NCBI GenBank assembly: GCA_030425925.1
Contig: JAUHZO010000007.1
Coordinates: 124,001-188,000 of the forward strand
Direction of reading: 5' to 3'
DNA from: Alphaproteobacteria bacterium
Lineage (GTDB): Bacteria; Pseudomonadota; Alphaproteobacteria; Rhodobacterales; Rhodobacteraceae
DNA: 64,000 nt
The translations under genes and the position numbers were made by a program. Under the pieces are notes generated by a model. The model was not told where the DNA came from and made no database searches. It saw nothing but the letters and a program-made list of their open reading frames with translations. Positions 37,729-44,519 of the stretch are shown piece after piece; positions within the stretch are counted from its first letter, which is position 1, and the number at the start of each line of letters is the position of its first letter.

Positions 37729-38505
37729 ATGCTCCTTGCCATCGATTGCGGCAACACCAACACCGTGTTCTCGATCTGGGACGGGACGCGGTTCCTGTGC
37801 ACGCTGCGCACCTCGACCCATCATGCGCGCACGGCGGATGCCTATTTCACCTGGTTCCACACGCTGGTGACGCATTACGGGATCGACGCGCAGATCACCG
37901 ACGTGATCATCTCGTCCACCGTGCCGCGCGTGGTGTTCAACCTGCGGGTCTTTGCCGACCGGTTCTTTGGCTGCCGCCCGCTGGTGGTGGGCCGGCCCGA
38001 CTGCAGGCTGCCGGTGCCGCCGCGTGTCGATCCGGGCACCGCCGTGGGGCCGGACCGCCTGGTGAACGTCGCCGGGGCTTATGACCGGCATGGCGGGGAC
38101 GTGGTGGTGGTGGATTTCGGCACGGCGACCACCTTTGACGTGGTGGCCGAGGACGGGGCCTATGTGGGTGGCGTGATCGCGCCAGGGGTGAACCTGAGCC
38201 TCGAAGCGCTGCACATGGGGGCGGCCGCACTGCCGCATGTGGACATCACCCAGCCCGACAAGGTGATCGGCACCAACACGGTGGGCTGTATCCAGTCCGG
38301 CGTGTTCTGGGGCTATGTCGGGCTGATCGACGGCATCGCCACCCGCATAAAGGCCGAATACGGCCGTCCGATGAAGGTGATCGGCACGGGCGGGCTTGCA
38401 TCGCTCTTCGCCAGCGGCGAAGTGCTGTTCGACAGCGTCGAGGACGATCTGACGATGCACGGGCTGACCGTGATCCATAACCACAACAAGAGGCAGGACT
38501 TATGA
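37729..38505 (+). CDS. coaX: Type III pantothenate kinase
   Basis: 258 aa. MLLAIDCGNTNTVFSIWDG holds the first ATP-binding block, DPGTAVGPDRLVNVAGAY the substrate region, and VVVDFGTATTFDVVAEDGAY the second. LSLEALHMGAAALP and IGTNTVGCIQSGVFWGYVGLID are typical later motifs. It phosphorylates pantothenate in CoA synthesis and needs a monovalent cation. It sits 11 bp after birA, and its stop overlaps the rnj start (ATGA). Confidence 0.94.
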   Translation: MLLAIDCGNTNTVFSIWDGTRFLCTLRTSTHHARTADAYFTWFHTLVTHYGIDAQITDVIISSTVPRVVFNLRVFADRFFGCRPLVVGRPDCRLPVPPRVDPGTAVGPDRLVNVAGAYDRHGGDVVVVDFGTATTFDVVAEDGAYVGGVIAPGVNLSLEALHMGAAALPHVDITQPDKVIGTNTVGCIQSGVFWGYVGLIDGIATRIKAEYGRPMKVIGTGGLASLFASGEVLFDSVEDDLTMHGLTVIHNHNKRQDL

Positions 38506-40169
38506 GCGAAGACCGGTTGATCTACCTCCCGCTGGGGGGTGCCGGCGAGATCGGCATGAACTGCTATGTCTACGGCTACGGCAAACCGGGGGCCGAGCGG
38601 CTGATCGTCGTCGATCTGGGCGTGACCTTTCCCGACATGGACGGCACGCCGGGCGTGGATCTGATCCTGCCCGACATCACCTGGCTGAAGGAAAACCGCA
38701 ACCGGATCGACGCGATCTTCATCACCCATGCGCATGAGGACCATGTGGGCGCGGTGGGGCATTGCTTTGAACAGCTGGGCGCGCCGATCCATGCGCGGGC
38801 CTTCACGGCGAACATCGCGCGCGGCAAGCTGTCGGAATACGGGATTGGCGAGAAGGCGGTGCGCACCGCGTCCAAATGGCCCGAGACCGTGCAGGCCGGG
38901 CCGTTCCGCGTGGGGTTCCTGCCGATCTCGCACTCGATCCCGGAATCGAGCGCGCTGGTGATCGACAGCCCGGCGGGGCGCGTCATCCATACCGGAGATT
39001 TCAAGCTGGACACGCAGCCGCTGGTGGGCGAGCCGTGGGATCCCGCGCTCTGGAGCGAGGTGGCCCGGCCGGGCGTTCTGGCGCTGGTCTGCGATTCGAC
39101 CAACGTGTTCTCGGAACATCCCGGGCGGTCGGAATCCTCGGTCGGGCCGGAGGTGGAGGCGCTGGTCGCCGGGGCGAAACAGATGGTGGTGGCGACCACC
39201 TTTGCCTCCAACGTGGCGCGGGTCAAGACGCTGGCGGAGGCGGGCGAGCGGGCCGGGCGGTCGATCTGCCTTTTGGGCCGGGCGATGCGGCGGATGATCG
39301 AGGCGGCGGTGGAAACCGGCGTGCTGACCTCGTTCCCCAAGGTGATCGCACCCGAGGACGTGACCCAGATCCCGCGCGAGAACGTCATGCTGATCGTGAC
39401 CGGATCCCAGGGCGAACGCCGGGCGGCCAGCGCGCAGCTGGCCCGCGGCAAGTTCAACGGGATCGAGATGAAGGAGGGCGATCTGTTCCTGTTCTCCTCC
39501 AAGACGATCCCGGGCAATGAACGCGGCGTGATCCGGATCATGAACATGTTCTCGGAACAGGGTGTGGACGTGATCGACGATTCCGGCGGCAGGTACCATG
39601 TGTCCGGCCATGCCAATCGGCCGGACCTGGAAACGGTGCAGGACCTGGTGCAGCCGCAGATCGTGGTGCCGATGCATGGCGAACACCGCCACCTGCGCGA
39701 GCATGTCAAGCTGACGCAGGCGCGGGGCCGAAAGGGCGTGCTGGCGGTGAACGGGATGATGATCGAGCTGTCGGGCAACGCGCCCCGCGTGGTGGAGCAT
39801 GTGGAGACCGGGCGCACCTATCTTGATGGCTCGGTCCAGATCGGTGCGCTGGACGGGGTCGTGCGCGACCGTATCCGCATGGCGCTGAACGGTCACGTGG
39901 TGGTGACCGTGATCCTGGACGAAGAGGATGCGCCGCTGGGCGATCCCTGGTGCGACCTGAAGGGCCTGCCCGAGACCGGCCGCAGCCACGCGCCGCTGAC
40001 GGATGTGCTGGAGGAAGACCTGAGCCAGTTCATCGGACGTGCCGGAGACAAGACCCTGGCCGATGACGACAAGCTGGAAGAGGGGCTGGTGCGTGTGGTG
40101 CGCAATACCTGCCAGAGCGAGATCGGCAAGAAGCCCGAGGTGACGGTGGTGGTGTCGCGGTTGGCGTAG
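38502..40169 (+). CDS. rnj: Ribonuclease J
   Basis: 555 aa metallo-beta-lactamase/beta-CASP nuclease with endo- and 5'-exonuclease activity in RNA processing and decay. The zinc motif HAHEDHVGA is near residue 74. Other motifs: SIPESSALVIDSPAGRVIHTGDFKLD, DSTNVFSEHPGRSE, and the C-terminal beta-CASP His in DSGGRYHVSGHANR. In alphaproteobacteria RNase J commonly lies downstream of birA-coaX, as here. The start overlaps coaX (ATGA). Confidence 0.95.
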   Translation: MSEDRLIYLPLGGAGEIGMNCYVYGYGKPGAERLIVVDLGVTFPDMDGTPGVDLILPDITWLKENRNRIDAIFITHAHEDHVGAVGHCFEQLGAPIHARAFTANIARGKLSEYGIGEKAVRTASKWPETVQAGPFRVGFLPISHSIPESSALVIDSPAGRVIHTGDFKLDTQPLVGEPWDPALWSEVARPGVLALVCDSTNVFSEHPGRSESSVGPEVEALVAGAKQMVVATTFASNVARVKTLAEAGERAGRSICLLGRAMRRMIEAAVETGVLTSFPKVIAPEDVTQIPRENVMLIVTGSQGERRAASAQLARGKFNGIEMKEGDLFLFSSKTIPGNERGVIRIMNMFSEQGVDVIDDSGGRYHVSGHANRPDLETVQDLVQPQIVVPMHGEHRHLREHVKLTQARGRKGVLAVNGMMIELSGNAPRVVEHVETGRTYLDGSVQIGALDGVVRDRIRMALNGHVVVTVILDEEDAPLGDPWCDLKGLPETGRSHAPLTDVLEEDLSQFIGRAGDKTLADDDKLEEGLVRVVRNTCQSEIGKKPEVTVVVSRLA

Positions 40170-40215: not shown

Positions 40216-41565
40216 TCAGCCCGCGCGCCGTTCCTCGAAGCTCAGCGCGATGAATTCCGGCATGTGGTCGCCCATGCCCACCACGTTGCTGTCCTGGCGG
40301 CTCTCGTCGCCATGGCGCGGACCACGCTCGGACCGGCGCGAGCGCGTGCGCGTGGGTTTGCGGTCCTCCGTCTCGGCGCGCGGTGCCCGGCTCGGCTCCT
40401 CCACCGGGGCGGCGGTCTTGACCGGGTTCTCGATACGCGGGATTTGCTTCTGGATCAGCTTTTCCACGCCGTCGAGATACTTGTCGTCGCGCGGTACACA
40501 GATGGTGAAGGCCTTGCCCGAGCGTCCGGCGCGTCCGGTGCGGCCGATGCGGTGGACGTAATCCTCGGCATGGCTTGGCACGTCGAAGTTGAACACGTGG
40601 CTGACCGCCGGGATGTCCAGGCCGCGCGCGGCCACGTCCGAGGCAATCAGCAGGCGCAGATCGCCATTGCGGAAGCCGTCCAGCGTGCGGGTGCGCTGCG
40701 ACTGGTCCAGGTCGCCATGGATCGCGGCGGCGTCATAGCCGTATTTCTTCAGCGATTTCGCCACGATATCCACATCGACCTTGCGGTTGCAGAAGATGAT
40801 GGCGTTGGTGCAGGCCGCGCCTTCGGCGTCGATCAGCGCACGCAGAACGGCCCGTTTTTCCGAGCCTTCGCGATCCTTGCGCGAGGGTTTGAACACAACC
40901 GCCGCCTGTTCGATGGTCTCGGACGCGGTGGCCTGCCGCGCCACCTCGATCCGGGCGGGGGCCGACAGGAAGGTGTTGGTGATGCGCTCGATCTCCGGCG
41001 CCATGGTGGCCGAGAAGAACAGCGTCTGCCGGGTGAACGGCGTGAGCGAGAAGATGCGTTCGATATCCGGGATGAAACCCATGTCGAGCATGCGGTCGGC
41101 TTCGTCCACCACCATGATCTCGATGCCGGTCAGCAGCAGCTTTCCGCGCTCGAAATGGTCCAGCAGGCGGCCCGGCGTGGCGATCAGCACGTCGACGCCC
41201 TTGTCGATCAGGATGTCCTGTTCCTTGAAGGACACGCCGCCGATCAGCAGCGCCTTTGTCAGCTTCACGTATTGCGAATAGGTGTCGAAGTTCTCGGCCA
41301 CCTGCGCCGCCAGTTCCCGTGTCGGGCACAGCACCAGCGAACGCGGCATCCGCGCGCGGGCGCGCCCCCGGGCCAGCTTGGTGATCATCGGCAGGGTAAA
41401 GCTTGCGGTCTTGCCGGTGCCGGTCTGGGCGATGCCAAGGACGTCCTTGCCGTCCAGCGCGGGCGGGATCGCCCCTTCCTGGATCGGCGTGGGGGTTTCG
41501 TACCCGGCTTCTTCGATGGCTTTCAGAACCTTGGGGTTCAGGTTCAGGTCGGAAAATTTTGTCAT
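40216..41565 (-). CDS. DEAD-box RNA helicase (RhlE-like)
   Basis: 449 aa from ATG 41565 (MTKFSDLNLNPKVLKAIEE). Complete motif set: Q-motif (YETPTPIQEGAIPP), motif I GTGKT, Ia PTRELAAQ, DEAD box VVDEADRML, motif III SATM, and motif VI HRIGRTGRAG. The C-terminal tail is basic, with TRTRSRRSERGPRHGDESR, then VVGMGDHMPEFIALSFEER. The RhlE-like order and lack of an accessory RNA-binding domain are noted. An in-frame ATG at 41640 would add 25 residues, but homologues begin at 41565. It has its own promoter and a leader described separately. Confidence 0.93.
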   Translation of the reverse strand: MTKFSDLNLNPKVLKAIEEAGYETPTPIQEGAIPPALDGKDVLGIAQTGTGKTASFTLPMITKLARGRARARMPRSLVLCPTRELAAQVAENFDTYSQYVKLTKALLIGGVSFKEQDILIDKGVDVLIATPGRLLDHFERGKLLLTGIEIMVVDEADRMLDMGFIPDIERIFSLTPFTRQTLFFSATMAPEIERITNTFLSAPARIEVARQATASETIEQAAVVFKPSRKDREGSEKRAVLRALIDAEGAACTNAIIFCNRKVDVDIVAKSLKKYGYDAAAIHGDLDQSQRTRTLDGFRNGDLRLLIASDVAARGLDIPAVSHVFNFDVPSHAEDYVHRIGRTGRAGRSGKAFTICVPRDDKYLDGVEKLIQKQIPRIENPVKTAAPVEEPSRAPRAETEDRKPTRTRSRRSERGPRHGDESRQDSNVVGMGDHMPEFIALSFEERRAG

Positions 41566-41659
41566 GTGTGTCCGTATCATTGCGGACACTGACCTGGCCC
41601 GCACGTCTGTTGGGGTCAGGCCCGGATGGCCCTGAGTCATCTCTCACCCCGCGGGCGCC
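41566..41659 (-). promoter_or_regulatory. Structured 5' leader of the helicase gene
   Basis: Between the predicted -10 and the ATG 41565 there are 94 bp. Immediately before the start (2 nt away) the mRNA can form GTGTCCG - 8 nt - CGGACAC (41568-41589), a perfect 7-bp hairpin. Its 3' arm contains the only GGA available as a ribosome-binding site. A second potential stem (TCAGG/CCTGA with adjacent GGCC) lies at about 41615-41636. An in-frame ATG at 41640 marks an alternative upstream start. Confidence 0.5.
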
Positions 41660-41688
41660 TTTTTACGGAGTTTCACCTGAGAGGTCAA
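41660..41688 (-). promoter_or_regulatory. Strong predicted promoter of the helicase gene
   Basis: On the minus strand, TTGACC (41688-41683), a 17-bp spacer and TAAAAA (41665-41660). This is the best consensus-like promoter pair in the window. Predicted start is about 41653, giving a leader of about 90 nt. Confidence 0.65.
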
Positions 41689-41752: not shown

Positions 41753-42718
41753 TCAGCTGGCGGGATTGGCTGCCGGATCGGTGCCGGGGAAGTGCTTTTG
41801 CCGCAGCGCCTCCAGCCCCATCGCGTGCCGTCGCAACAGGCCGTTTTGCGCCAGCCGGTCGACCAGAAAGGGGGATGCGGTGCAGACCTCGTCAAAGAAC
41901 AGCCGCAGCGCGTTCTCGCCGCCTTCCGCCTCGATCAGGCCAAAGAGGTCGTGCAGGCTGAGCGCGCTGCCGTCGCGCACCTGCGGTTTCAACTCGGCCC
42001 GGTAGGATCCGCGCGCCAGCCGAAAGCGGTAGGCCTGCAGGAAATGCGCCCAGTCGGCGGCGTGGAAATGGCCCAGTTCGGTCCCGGTCAGCGGCACCTC
42101 GCCGGGGTTCTGCTGGCCGTCGAGGATCACGTTGTGGATGCGCACCTGCAGCCCCTTGGTGCCGGGGCGGAAGAACAGCTTGCCCGCGACATGGCTGAGA
42201 AAGCCGCCCGACAGATGCGCGCCCCATGTGGGAAAGCAGGCGCGGGCCGCCGCCTGCCGCGCGGCCTGGTCAAGGTGGAAGGCCTTGAACAGGGTTTCGC
42301 CCGGCGGCGTGTCACGCCCCGGGGCCAGGGCCTCCACCGGGCGGACACGGGCGCAAAGCGCCGCCTCGGGCAGGGCGGCCAGCTGGTCGGCCAGGGGCGT
42401 GGCGGGCAGCAGGAACTCGTCCACGTCGATATGGGCCAGCCAGTCGACCTCGGGCTTGCGGTTGTTGGCGTGGCGCGCGTTCATGGTCTGGCGCACCTGG
42501 TGCATGTCCGGACGGCCCTTGCGCCTGGCCCAATAGGCGGCGTCGGTGTGCAGAACGCGCAGCTTGGGGTGCGCCGCAAGCGCGGCCTGCGTCCTTGGCA
42601 CATCGTCGTCGAGATAGAGGTAGATGCGGTGCGCGCCATGCTCCAGATGCCAGGCGGCAAAGCGCTGGATCGCGTCCAGCGGTGCCTTGACGGTGCTGAC
42701 CGTGCCCCAGCGGATCAC
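41753..42718 (-). CDS. Glycosyltransferase family 2-like protein (first paralogue)
   Basis: 321 aa. Sequence pattern of a GT2/DUF4422-like enzyme: RWGTVSTVKAPLDAIQRFAAWHLEHG near the N-terminus, DVPRTQAALAAHPKL, then WLAHIDVDEFLLPATPL with a DxD motif (about residues 96-98) that binds the metal/nucleotide sugar. The rest has a Gly/Phe-rich acceptor region (FPTWGAHLSGGFLSHVAGKLFFR). The sugar and acceptor are unknown. It is a paralogue of the C-terminal half of the gene upstream (42715-44448), which it overlaps by 4 bp. Confidence 0.8.
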   Translation of the reverse strand: MIRWGTVSTVKAPLDAIQRFAAWHLEHGAHRIYLYLDDDVPRTQAALAAHPKLRVLHTDAAYWARRKGRPDMHQVRQTMNARHANNRKPEVDWLAHIDVDEFLLPATPLADQLAALPEAALCARVRPVEALAPGRDTPPGETLFKAFHLDQAARQAAARACFPTWGAHLSGGFLSHVAGKLFFRPGTKGLQVRIHNVILDGQQNPGEVPLTGTELGHFHAADWAHFLQAYRFRLARGSYRAELKPQVRDGSALSLHDLFGLIEAEGGENALRLFFDEVCTASPFLVDRLAQNGLLRRHAMGLEALRQKHFPGTDPAANPAS

Positions 42719-44448
42719 GGCAAGGCCCCGAAGACGCGGGCAACGGCGGCATCGAGGTCCAGCTTGCGGGTCAGCAGCATCCCGCGGGTGTCGAGCCGTC
42801 GGCGCAGTTCCGGCGTGTCGGCGCAGACCTCGTCAAAAAAGGCGCGCAGGCCGTCCTCGCCCTCTTCCTCGACCAGAAAACGCAGGAGTTCGGCCTGTCC
42901 AAGCTCGGGCCGGTCGGAGCGGGGACGATAGGAGCCCTTGGTCTGGCGAAAGGCCAGATGGGCACGGAAATGCTCCCAGCTGGGCGCGTGCAGATGGGCA
43001 AGGTAGAGGCCCGGTGGTTTCATCCGGTTGGTGGCGTCCTCGCCCTTGTGTTTCAGCGTGTGGATGCCCAGCCGTGTGTCGGGGATGCCGGTGCGGGCCA
43101 GCACCTTGCCCGAGGTATGGCTGAGAAAGCCGCCATAGAGATGCAGGCCGAAGGTCGGGTAGACCTCTTGCAGTTGGGATTTCTTGATACCCGCCTGCTT
43201 GTGAGTCAGCTTGAAGGCCTGCGGCACACCGTCCTCGCGTGCGAGCGCTTCGGCCGGGGGGATGCGGGCGATGGCGGTGGCGGGGGGCAGAGCAGCGAGT
43301 TTCCCGGCGATGGGGGCGTCGGTCAGCAGGAATTCGTCCACGTCGAGATGGCCGAGCCAGTCCAGATCATCTTCCAGAAGCCGCAGCGACCGGGTGGCGT
43401 TATGGGCCTGCCGCAGCTGGTGGGCGTCCATCCGGGTCTTGCCTGTCGCGCGCCAATAGGCATCGTTACAGGGGATTGCGGTGATCCTGGGATGCGCGTT
43501 CAGAAAGGCGGCAACGGACGGATCGGGCGCGTCGAGATAGAGGTGCAGATGCGCCGCCCCCAGTTCGAGGTGCCAGGCGGCAAAGCGGGCGATGGCGGGC
43601 AAGGGGGCCTTGACGGTGCTGACGAGACCCCAGCGCAGGGTGTTGGCGCTCAGGTGCAGGCGCTGCGCGGGCACTGGCGCGATGTTGGAGCGTTTGCGCG
43701 CCCCCTCGCGTTCCTTGCGGGCGCGCATGGTCATCAGGCGGCGCATCACGGTGCGGTCGTCATGGATCAGCATGTCAAGCAGGTGATGGGCCAGCGGCGC
43801 GATGACCGCGTCACCCTCGGCCTCTTGCCAGAGCCGGGCGATCAGGTTCACATCCAGCCCGCCGCCCACCAGCGCATAGGCGTCCATGTCCAGCGGCAGC
43901 GCGGCTTGTGCCTTGTTGCCCAGCGGATGGGGGGTGTCAGGGGCCAGCCCTGCATAGAGACGTTCGGATTCGTACAGCTTCATCGTCCCGAACAGCGCGG
44001 TCAGCGCTAGCCCGGTGGCGCGCTGGGGCACCGTGACGCCGTGATCGCCAAAGGTGGTGACGGCCGAGACCAGCCAGCGCGGGTTCAGCCGGTTCAGCAG
44101 ATGCGCCCCCTGTTCGGCCCAGAGGCGCTGGAACAGGGCGGGCGCATGCGGCGGCACCGTGCGCTTGCGCAGATGCGAGATCAGCAACGCGTTGAGGAAA
44201 CACAGTTCGGACTCCCCCGCCAGCTCTGTGCGCAACTGGGCGCATTTGCGATGAAAGGAGGAGCGGAAGGGCGGCTGAAAGGCCGGATCGTCCGCGGGGT
44301 CGGTCACGATCTGCCCCGCCAACGCCGCAAGGTCGGTGTCCAGCGGCGGCAGGCCTTCACCCTCGGCATAGCCGAAGGCGTCGCGCCGGGCCTCGTATTG
44401 CGACAGCAGGGCGGTGATTCCGCCCTTGTAGGTGGGAACTCTGCTCAT
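42715..44448 (-). CDS. Large glycosyltransferase with N-terminal helical domain (second paralogue)
   Basis: 577 aa from ATG 44448. The first about 275 residues are a mostly helical domain of unknown type. The C-terminal about 300 residues repeat the same order as 41753: LRWGLVSTVKAPLPAIARFAAWHL, WLGHLDVDEFLLTDAP (DxD), YPTFGLHLYGGFLSHTSGKVLAR, then a C-terminal FDEV motif. Thus the two are tandem paralogues of one GT unit, one with an extra domain. Substrate unknown; possibly cell-surface polysaccharide. A TTG at 44484 could extend it. Confidence 0.8.
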   Translation of the reverse strand: MSRVPTYKGGITALLSQYEARRDAFGYAEGEGLPPLDTDLAALAGQIVTDPADDPAFQPPFRSSFHRKCAQLRTELAGESELCFLNALLISHLRKRTVPPHAPALFQRLWAEQGAHLLNRLNPRWLVSAVTTFGDHGVTVPQRATGLALTALFGTMKLYESERLYAGLAPDTPHPLGNKAQAALPLDMDAYALVGGGLDVNLIARLWQEAEGDAVIAPLAHHLLDMLIHDDRTVMRRLMTMRARKEREGARKRSNIAPVPAQRLHLSANTLRWGLVSTVKAPLPAIARFAAWHLELGAAHLHLYLDAPDPSVAAFLNAHPRITAIPCNDAYWRATGKTRMDAHQLRQAHNATRSLRLLEDDLDWLGHLDVDEFLLTDAPIAGKLAALPPATAIARIPPAEALAREDGVPQAFKLTHKQAGIKKSQLQEVYPTFGLHLYGGFLSHTSGKVLARTGIPDTRLGIHTLKHKGEDATNRMKPPGLYLAHLHAPSWEHFRAHLAFRQTKGSYRPRSDRPELGQAELLRFLVEEEGEDGLRAFFDEVCADTPELRRRLDTRGMLLTRKLDLDAAVARVFGALP

Positions 44449-44519
44449 GCGCGCCAGAGTGGCGCGCGCGCCGGACTGCGGCAAGGCAGGTTTGTGGAAT
44501 TCCGGCGGCGCTGCCGGGG

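Follow-up and report, generated by a model that had tools for sequence, protein, structure and literature searches.

DEAD-box RNA helicases are raised in the cold by many bacteria, which poses the question of how a cell senses a shortage of unwinding capacity. In Escherichia coli, the DEAD-box helicase gene deaD (csdA) lowers its own expression via the long leader of its mRNA, which extends over several hundred nucleotides and involves Rho-dependent termination. The leader of the cold-shock mRNA cspA adopts alternative folds that differ in the accessibility of the ribosome-binding site (RBS) in the cold, and these folds are reported to answer temperature itself. In Caulobacter crescentus, rhlE carries a 186-nt 5' untranslated region (5' UTR) and is induced in the cold, mainly after transcription (PMC5472812). 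A reporter for this gene, built as a transcriptional fusion, was higher in an rhlE null strain (PMC5472812).

The leader studied here precedes an rhlE-type gene in a 64,000-nt stretch of Rhodobacteraceae DNA, referred to below as the window. It is like that of Caulobacter rhlE in that the helicase is of the same type and the leader is long and structured; the Caulobacter gene is itself under post-transcriptional control, with a hint of self-regulation (PMC5472812). The Caulobacter leader differs in length and in sequence, and no two-state switch has been described for it. Moreover, cold induction was measured in Caulobacter; the Rhodobacteraceae leader was studied through sequence comparison and predicted folds. 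Unlike E. coli deaD, the rhlE leader is predicted to exchange two helices at the ribosome-binding site, and unlike cspA, the predicted energy order of its folds does not reverse with temperature. By analogy with Caulobacter rhlE, self-regulation by RhlE through the leader is plausible.

The gene, its promoter and its ribosome-binding arm are placed as follows.

40216 to 41565, minus strand: rhlE-type gene for a DEAD-box RNA helicase, with its start ATG at 41565-41563, assigned from Pfam domains.
41660 to 41688, minus strand: promoter, TTGACC (41688-41683), a 17-nt spacer and TAAAAA (41665-41660), by direct reading.
41568 to 41574, minus strand: RBS arm CGGACAC, which forms the 3' arm of a hairpin and has the only GGA ahead of the start codon, by direct reading.

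Both helicase domains are present in the gene product (Pfam DEAD, 3.1e-46; Helicase_C, 1.1e-32). Against the NCBIfam RhlE equivalog model it scored 398 bits, under the required 743, and the CshA and RhlE2 models also matched, likewise under their curated cut-offs. Since all NCBIfam matches lie under cut-off, the name rhlE follows best similarity only. The protein was matched in 59 of 61 relatives and, at a stricter threshold, in 133 of 139 family genomes. Convergent with rhlE and adjoining it is an RNase J-like gene (38502-40169, plus strand; NCBIfam RNase J models, under their cut-offs), so that two RNA-processing genes stand tail to tail. Immediately upstream of the rhlE promoter, 41753-42718 and 42715-44484 (minus strand) encode tandem proteins, both of which have the family 2 glycosyltransferase domain PF13704.

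The preliminary description had reported the promoter TTGACC-17-TAAAAA and a leader of about 90 nt, and direct reading of the minus strand agrees with it. With transcription predicted to start at about 41655-41650 (minus strand), the leader is about 87 nt to the ATG. A strict consensus promoter scan reported no site, TTGACC-17-TAAAAA being among its misses. Because 139 of the 141 relatives compared keep a TTGAC upstream of the gene, with a median distance to the ATG of 126 nt, this promoter is very probably real.

On the minus strand, the end of the leader reads GTGTCCG (41589-41583), an 8-nt loop (41582-41575), CGGACAC (41574-41568), AC and the ATG at 41565-41563. The perfect 7-bp hairpin described earlier, lying 2 nt before the rhlE ATG and holding the only GGA near the start, was exact when read directly. 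Of the 1880 ATGs of the window, 19 have a perfect stem of 7 bp or more that ends 0-4 nt upstream; taken alone, the RBS hairpin is therefore an event of about 1% in this GC-rich window and means little. In the window, its exact inverted repeat is present a single time (0.04 expected, one mismatch allowed). Two features go beyond the earlier description: structure and conservation extend to the 5' half of the leader, and a competing partner exists for the 5' arm of the hairpin. The segments involved are listed here.

41581 to 41589, minus strand: shared anti-RBS segment GUGUCCGCA, which pairs with 41603-41597 or with 41574-41568.
41597 to 41603, minus strand: competing segment UGCGGGC (anti-anti-RBS), which pairs with GUCCGCA (41587-41581), from covariation.

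The RBS helix and the competing helix draw on the same GTCCG segment and so exclude each other. Their conservation was followed in an alignment (A3) of 38 leaders of class B, the class of the window leader. The competing helix TRCGGGC/GTCCGYA was paired in 95% of cells, its variable pair being G-C in 26 leaders, A-U in 11 and G-U in 1; such pairing counts depend on the alignment, and kinship among the sequences inflates cell counts. The competing helix and the structured 5' domain of the leader together gave 80.7% of cells paired, against 73.1% when shuffled and at most 46% when slid, and 82 double-change cells against 40.5. Conservation of the RBS hairpin in relatives had been put forward as a check on its role, and the RBS helix GTGTCCG/CGGAYAC was paired in 87.5% of cells across the 38 relatives, with 12 double-change cells against 6.4.

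When 57 class B leaders were compared, the variable pair of the competing helix was G-C in 35 and A-U in 17, a covariation reached by none of 5000 shuffles, and two pairs of the RBS helix covaried (p 0.005 and 0.001). The variable pair was also paired in all 29 held-out distinct leaders (again 0 of 5000 shuffles as high). In the same held-out leaders, the outer pairs of the RBS helix were either too invariant or not above chance in covariation, so part of the support for this helix is near-invariance. When the helicase protein tree was used to trace the competing helix, its variable pair was seen to change at least six times. Across the 4 well-supported independent pairs, almost every random pairing had both sides changing together, a result that is suggestive only. 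Compensated outliers of the RBS helix include L168 (TTGGTCC/GGACCAA), L172 (GAGGTCCG/CGGACCTC) and L114 (ATGTCCG/CGGACAT).

The competing helix is thus firmly supported by the sequence comparison, as the strongest covariation in the leader, and the support for the RBS helix rests on its near-invariant core, the compensated outliers and the parallel in class A described below. In one further leader, L137 (76-179, minus strand), the segments of both helices have been rewritten in concert (GCAGGC/GCCTGC and GCCTG/CAGGC), and both can still form.

Three designs were found when 142 distinct leaders of the family were compared and sorted by loose sequence patterns: class B with 57 leaders, class A with about 40 and class C with about 20, leaving about 20 outside all three. 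On a quick tree of the helicase protein, class B is approximately one group, and the lowest branches of the family carry C-like leaders, an indication that class C may be the older design. In class A, the competing helix GGGRCGC/GCGTCCC was 99.6% paired and the RBS helix GCGTCC/GGACGC, with one further pair, 91% paired. These two helices share one segment, as in class B, so that the segments are different and the logic is the same; they surround a hairpin with double changes in all six of its pairs. Two conserved helices that exclude each other, one of them containing the ribosome-binding site, as in a translational two-state leader switch, were therefore found in both classes B and A. The earlier view, in which the leader is regulatory and its ribosome-binding site hidden, gains support from this family-wide conservation. 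The covariance model of class A also gave weak matches (E about 1e-5 to 5e-3) at the same position in class B leaders (G000, G002, G075, G119 and others), which hints at a common descent of both designs.

The presence of the same arrangement in two designs bears on the possibility of a constitutive structured leader, in which the folds would serve mRNA stability or a fixed low translation and no switching would take place. Such a role would agree with Caulobacter, where removal of the rhlE 5' UTR lowered the reporter and the authors credit stabilisation (PMC5472812). However, two exclusive helices kept in two differently built classes are hard to explain without an exchange between them, and we regard a constitutive leader as improbable.

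Covariance models were built for classes B, A and C, and matches with E below 1e-6 were counted as strong, these E-values being rough. In the family genomes in which the position of rhlE is known, strong matches of the three models occurred once per genome and only at the rhlE start. The class B model, derived from the 38 relatives, matched at the rhlE start in all of 30 further genomes outside the model set, and in each of the 30 the first base of the rhlE ATG lay 8 nt before the end of the match. Where a genome lacked a full helicase match, the class B model still hit twice, and both hits proved to be at rhlE genes cut by contig ends. The genome of the window has a single class B site, so its helicase paralogues carry none. 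Away from rhlE, the class models gave only marginal matches (E about 3e-4 to 1e-2), and the two of these that were examined, L217 and L218, are not leaders of helicase genes; a class-wide search with the class C model likewise gave marginal matches only. Judged from these matches, Rhodobacteraceae have in this leader a conserved structured RNA that is specific to rhlE.

Upstream of the competing segment, the leader contains the following elements.

41612 to 41650, minus strand: 5' domain, made up of P0, a small inner hairpin and P1, from covariation and predicted fold.
41650-41646 with 41616-41612, minus strand: P0, GGGGU/ACCCC, which encloses the inner hairpin and P1.
41645-41643 with 41636-41634, minus strand: inner hairpin, GAG/CUC.
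41632-41618, minus strand: P1 hairpin, GGGCC-AUCCG-GGCCU.
41638 to 41640, minus strand: in-frame upstream ATG, proposed as an alternative start and judged to be chance.

In A3, P1 was paired in 92% of cells, the inner hairpin in 80% and P0 in 53%, and all three appear, together with the competing helix, when the nascent window transcript is folded in silico. The loop of P1 is conserved, as RNNCG in class B and as AAUNCG in class C. Five of the six pairs of the class C P1 hairpin covary, and an alignment of this class (A5; L178, L122, L008, L025, L029 and others) has a near-invariant AAUNCG loop on a strongly covarying stem; from its sequence, this hairpin has the look of a protein-binding site. 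Class C also has the overlapping helices GGCCGC/GCGGCC and UGCGGC/GCCGCA, with an overlap of the class B kind and the site AAAGG. One class C leader, L018 (G031:C45:10903-10998), is separated by about 50 nt from the downstream start that aligns with rhlE, from which its helicase seems to have an N-terminal extension and an unusual start codon.

The conserved P1 hairpin and loop of classes B and C would suit autogenous control by protein binding, in which RhlE or another RNA-binding protein recognises P1 in the 5' domain and stabilises one fold, no catalysis of unwinding being involved. The location of the element before rhlE only is what autogenous control would predict. Class A, however, has no obvious P1 of this kind; its only candidate, a CCGGG-RCG-CCCGG hairpin, overlaps with the competing segment. 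We consider control by protein binding rather unlikely. The 5' domain of class B, a three-way junction, could also be read as the aptamer of a small-molecule riboswitch, with the competing helices as the expression platform, since a junction joined to a strand-exchange layout resembles translational riboswitches. Against this reading, the unpaired nucleotides of the junction are little conserved, P0 shows the low pairing given above, the 5' domain differs between classes, and the only gene served encodes a helicase, which names no ligand. A riboswitch is very unlikely.

The in-frame ATG at 41640, which the preliminary description had offered as a possible start of a longer form, lies about 12 nt from where transcription is predicted to begin, in a loop of the conserved 5' domain. 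Among the 142 leaders, only one other has an ATG at that offset, and a longer protein was rejected because the ATG is not conserved. An upstream peptide from 41640 was rejected as well: the frame enters rhlE with no stop codon before it, and thus holds no uORF in the window. The RBS hairpin has a further in-frame ATG in its loop (41580-41578, minus strand; MIRTHMTKF...).

The folding of the leaders was predicted with energies that are model values and ignore proteins and ribosomes. At full length, the fold with the hidden ribosome-binding site was predicted to be dominant in 47 of 54 class B leaders and to be favoured by about 5 kcal/mol in this class. In transcripts cut just before the ribosome-binding site, the competing helix had a median predicted probability of 0.98 and exceeded 0.5 in 43 of the 54. 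For the window leader with a transcript start at 41655-41650, the predicted probability was 0.96-1.0 for the competing helix in the truncated form and reached 0.999 for the hidden fold in the full-length form. Lower values came from starts outside this interval, and the predicted truncated fold depends on the exact start. The barrier from the open to the hidden fold was predicted at about 15 kcal/mol at 28 °C and 18.5 kcal/mol at 10 °C.

These predictions bear on how the leader might respond to temperature. As the ribosome-binding site is covered by a hairpin, a zero-order RNA thermometer would be conceivable, in which the hairpin melts when warm and translation rises, and the preliminary description had considered such an activation by warmth. 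In the window, however, the hidden fold is predicted to hold essentially the whole ensemble at 45 °C; an opening of the RBS helix within growth temperatures, as in thermometers of the ROSE and fourU kind, was not predicted. Moreover, no Rfam thermometer family matched, the known response of rhlE is to cold (Caulobacter, PMC5472812), and a thermometer would leave the competing helix without a role. It is the least probable of the readings weighed here. A simple equilibrium switch towards the open state in the cold was also rejected in silico, as the energy gap towards the hidden state widens in the cold; for this reason, a kinetic reading, which the predicted values favour, is proposed instead.

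According to the proposed kinetic mechanism, GUGUCCGCA would have two alternative partners: pairing with the upstream UGCGGGC would keep the ribosome-binding site accessible, and pairing with CGGACAC would mask it. Since transcription would complete the upstream helix first, new messages would begin open. The hidden state would be more stable and would be reached by strand exchange, which would be slow when unaided and slower still in the cold. Plentiful RhlE would accelerate refolding and shut down its own translation, while scarce RhlE or cold would leave messages open for longer, giving more RhlE. We infer that the open fold is the translated one, that this order of helix formation holds in the cell, and that the switch is triggered by RhlE and cold. 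With about 5 kcal/mol in favour of the hidden state, such a switch would stay off without a real kinetic delay.

The reading of the rhlE leader as a two-state translational switch, autoregulated by RhlE and responsive to cold by kinetic folding, has in our estimation an even chance of being right. Of this reading, the analysis shows the conserved structure, the mutual exclusion of the helices and the location at rhlE only, and gives the predicted energies. A more specific idea, which we put forward as tentative and somewhat doubtful, is that of a helicase-sensing RNA, in which the folding path and not the final stability would be read out, and the speed of RhlE in resolving the trapped open fold would set its synthesis.

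The regulatory logic of the proposed switch is that of known self-regulated helicase or cold-shock leaders. The searchable literature appears to hold no description of the element itself, of its layout for strand exchange or of its occurrence in classes of different build. Other structured RNAs confined to Rhodobacterales include SAM/SAH (PMC2864571) and uORFC-8-2 and HRC-8-4 (PMC8632094), which differ from the present element in the genes they accompany (metK, cysS and cco). The main texts of the structured-RNA papers covering the order mention no motif ahead of a DEAD-box helicase gene of Rhodobacterales, and literature searches, which took in mostly freely readable main texts, returned no description of the element. 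Rfam 15 gave no match at gathering score in the window and 12 relatives, and none to the leader at E up to 10.

Taken together, the leader represents an RNA family that is absent from Rfam 15. It is compact (about 87 nt), has two conserved folds that exclude each other and stands before one helicase gene family-wide, which makes it a testable candidate for a sensor of too little unwinding capacity. If the helicase-sensing idea is true, the leader would be a direct sensor of the RNA-unwinding capacity of the cell, and of cold via the same trap, and this sensor would have been built in at least two different sequence designs within one bacterial family.
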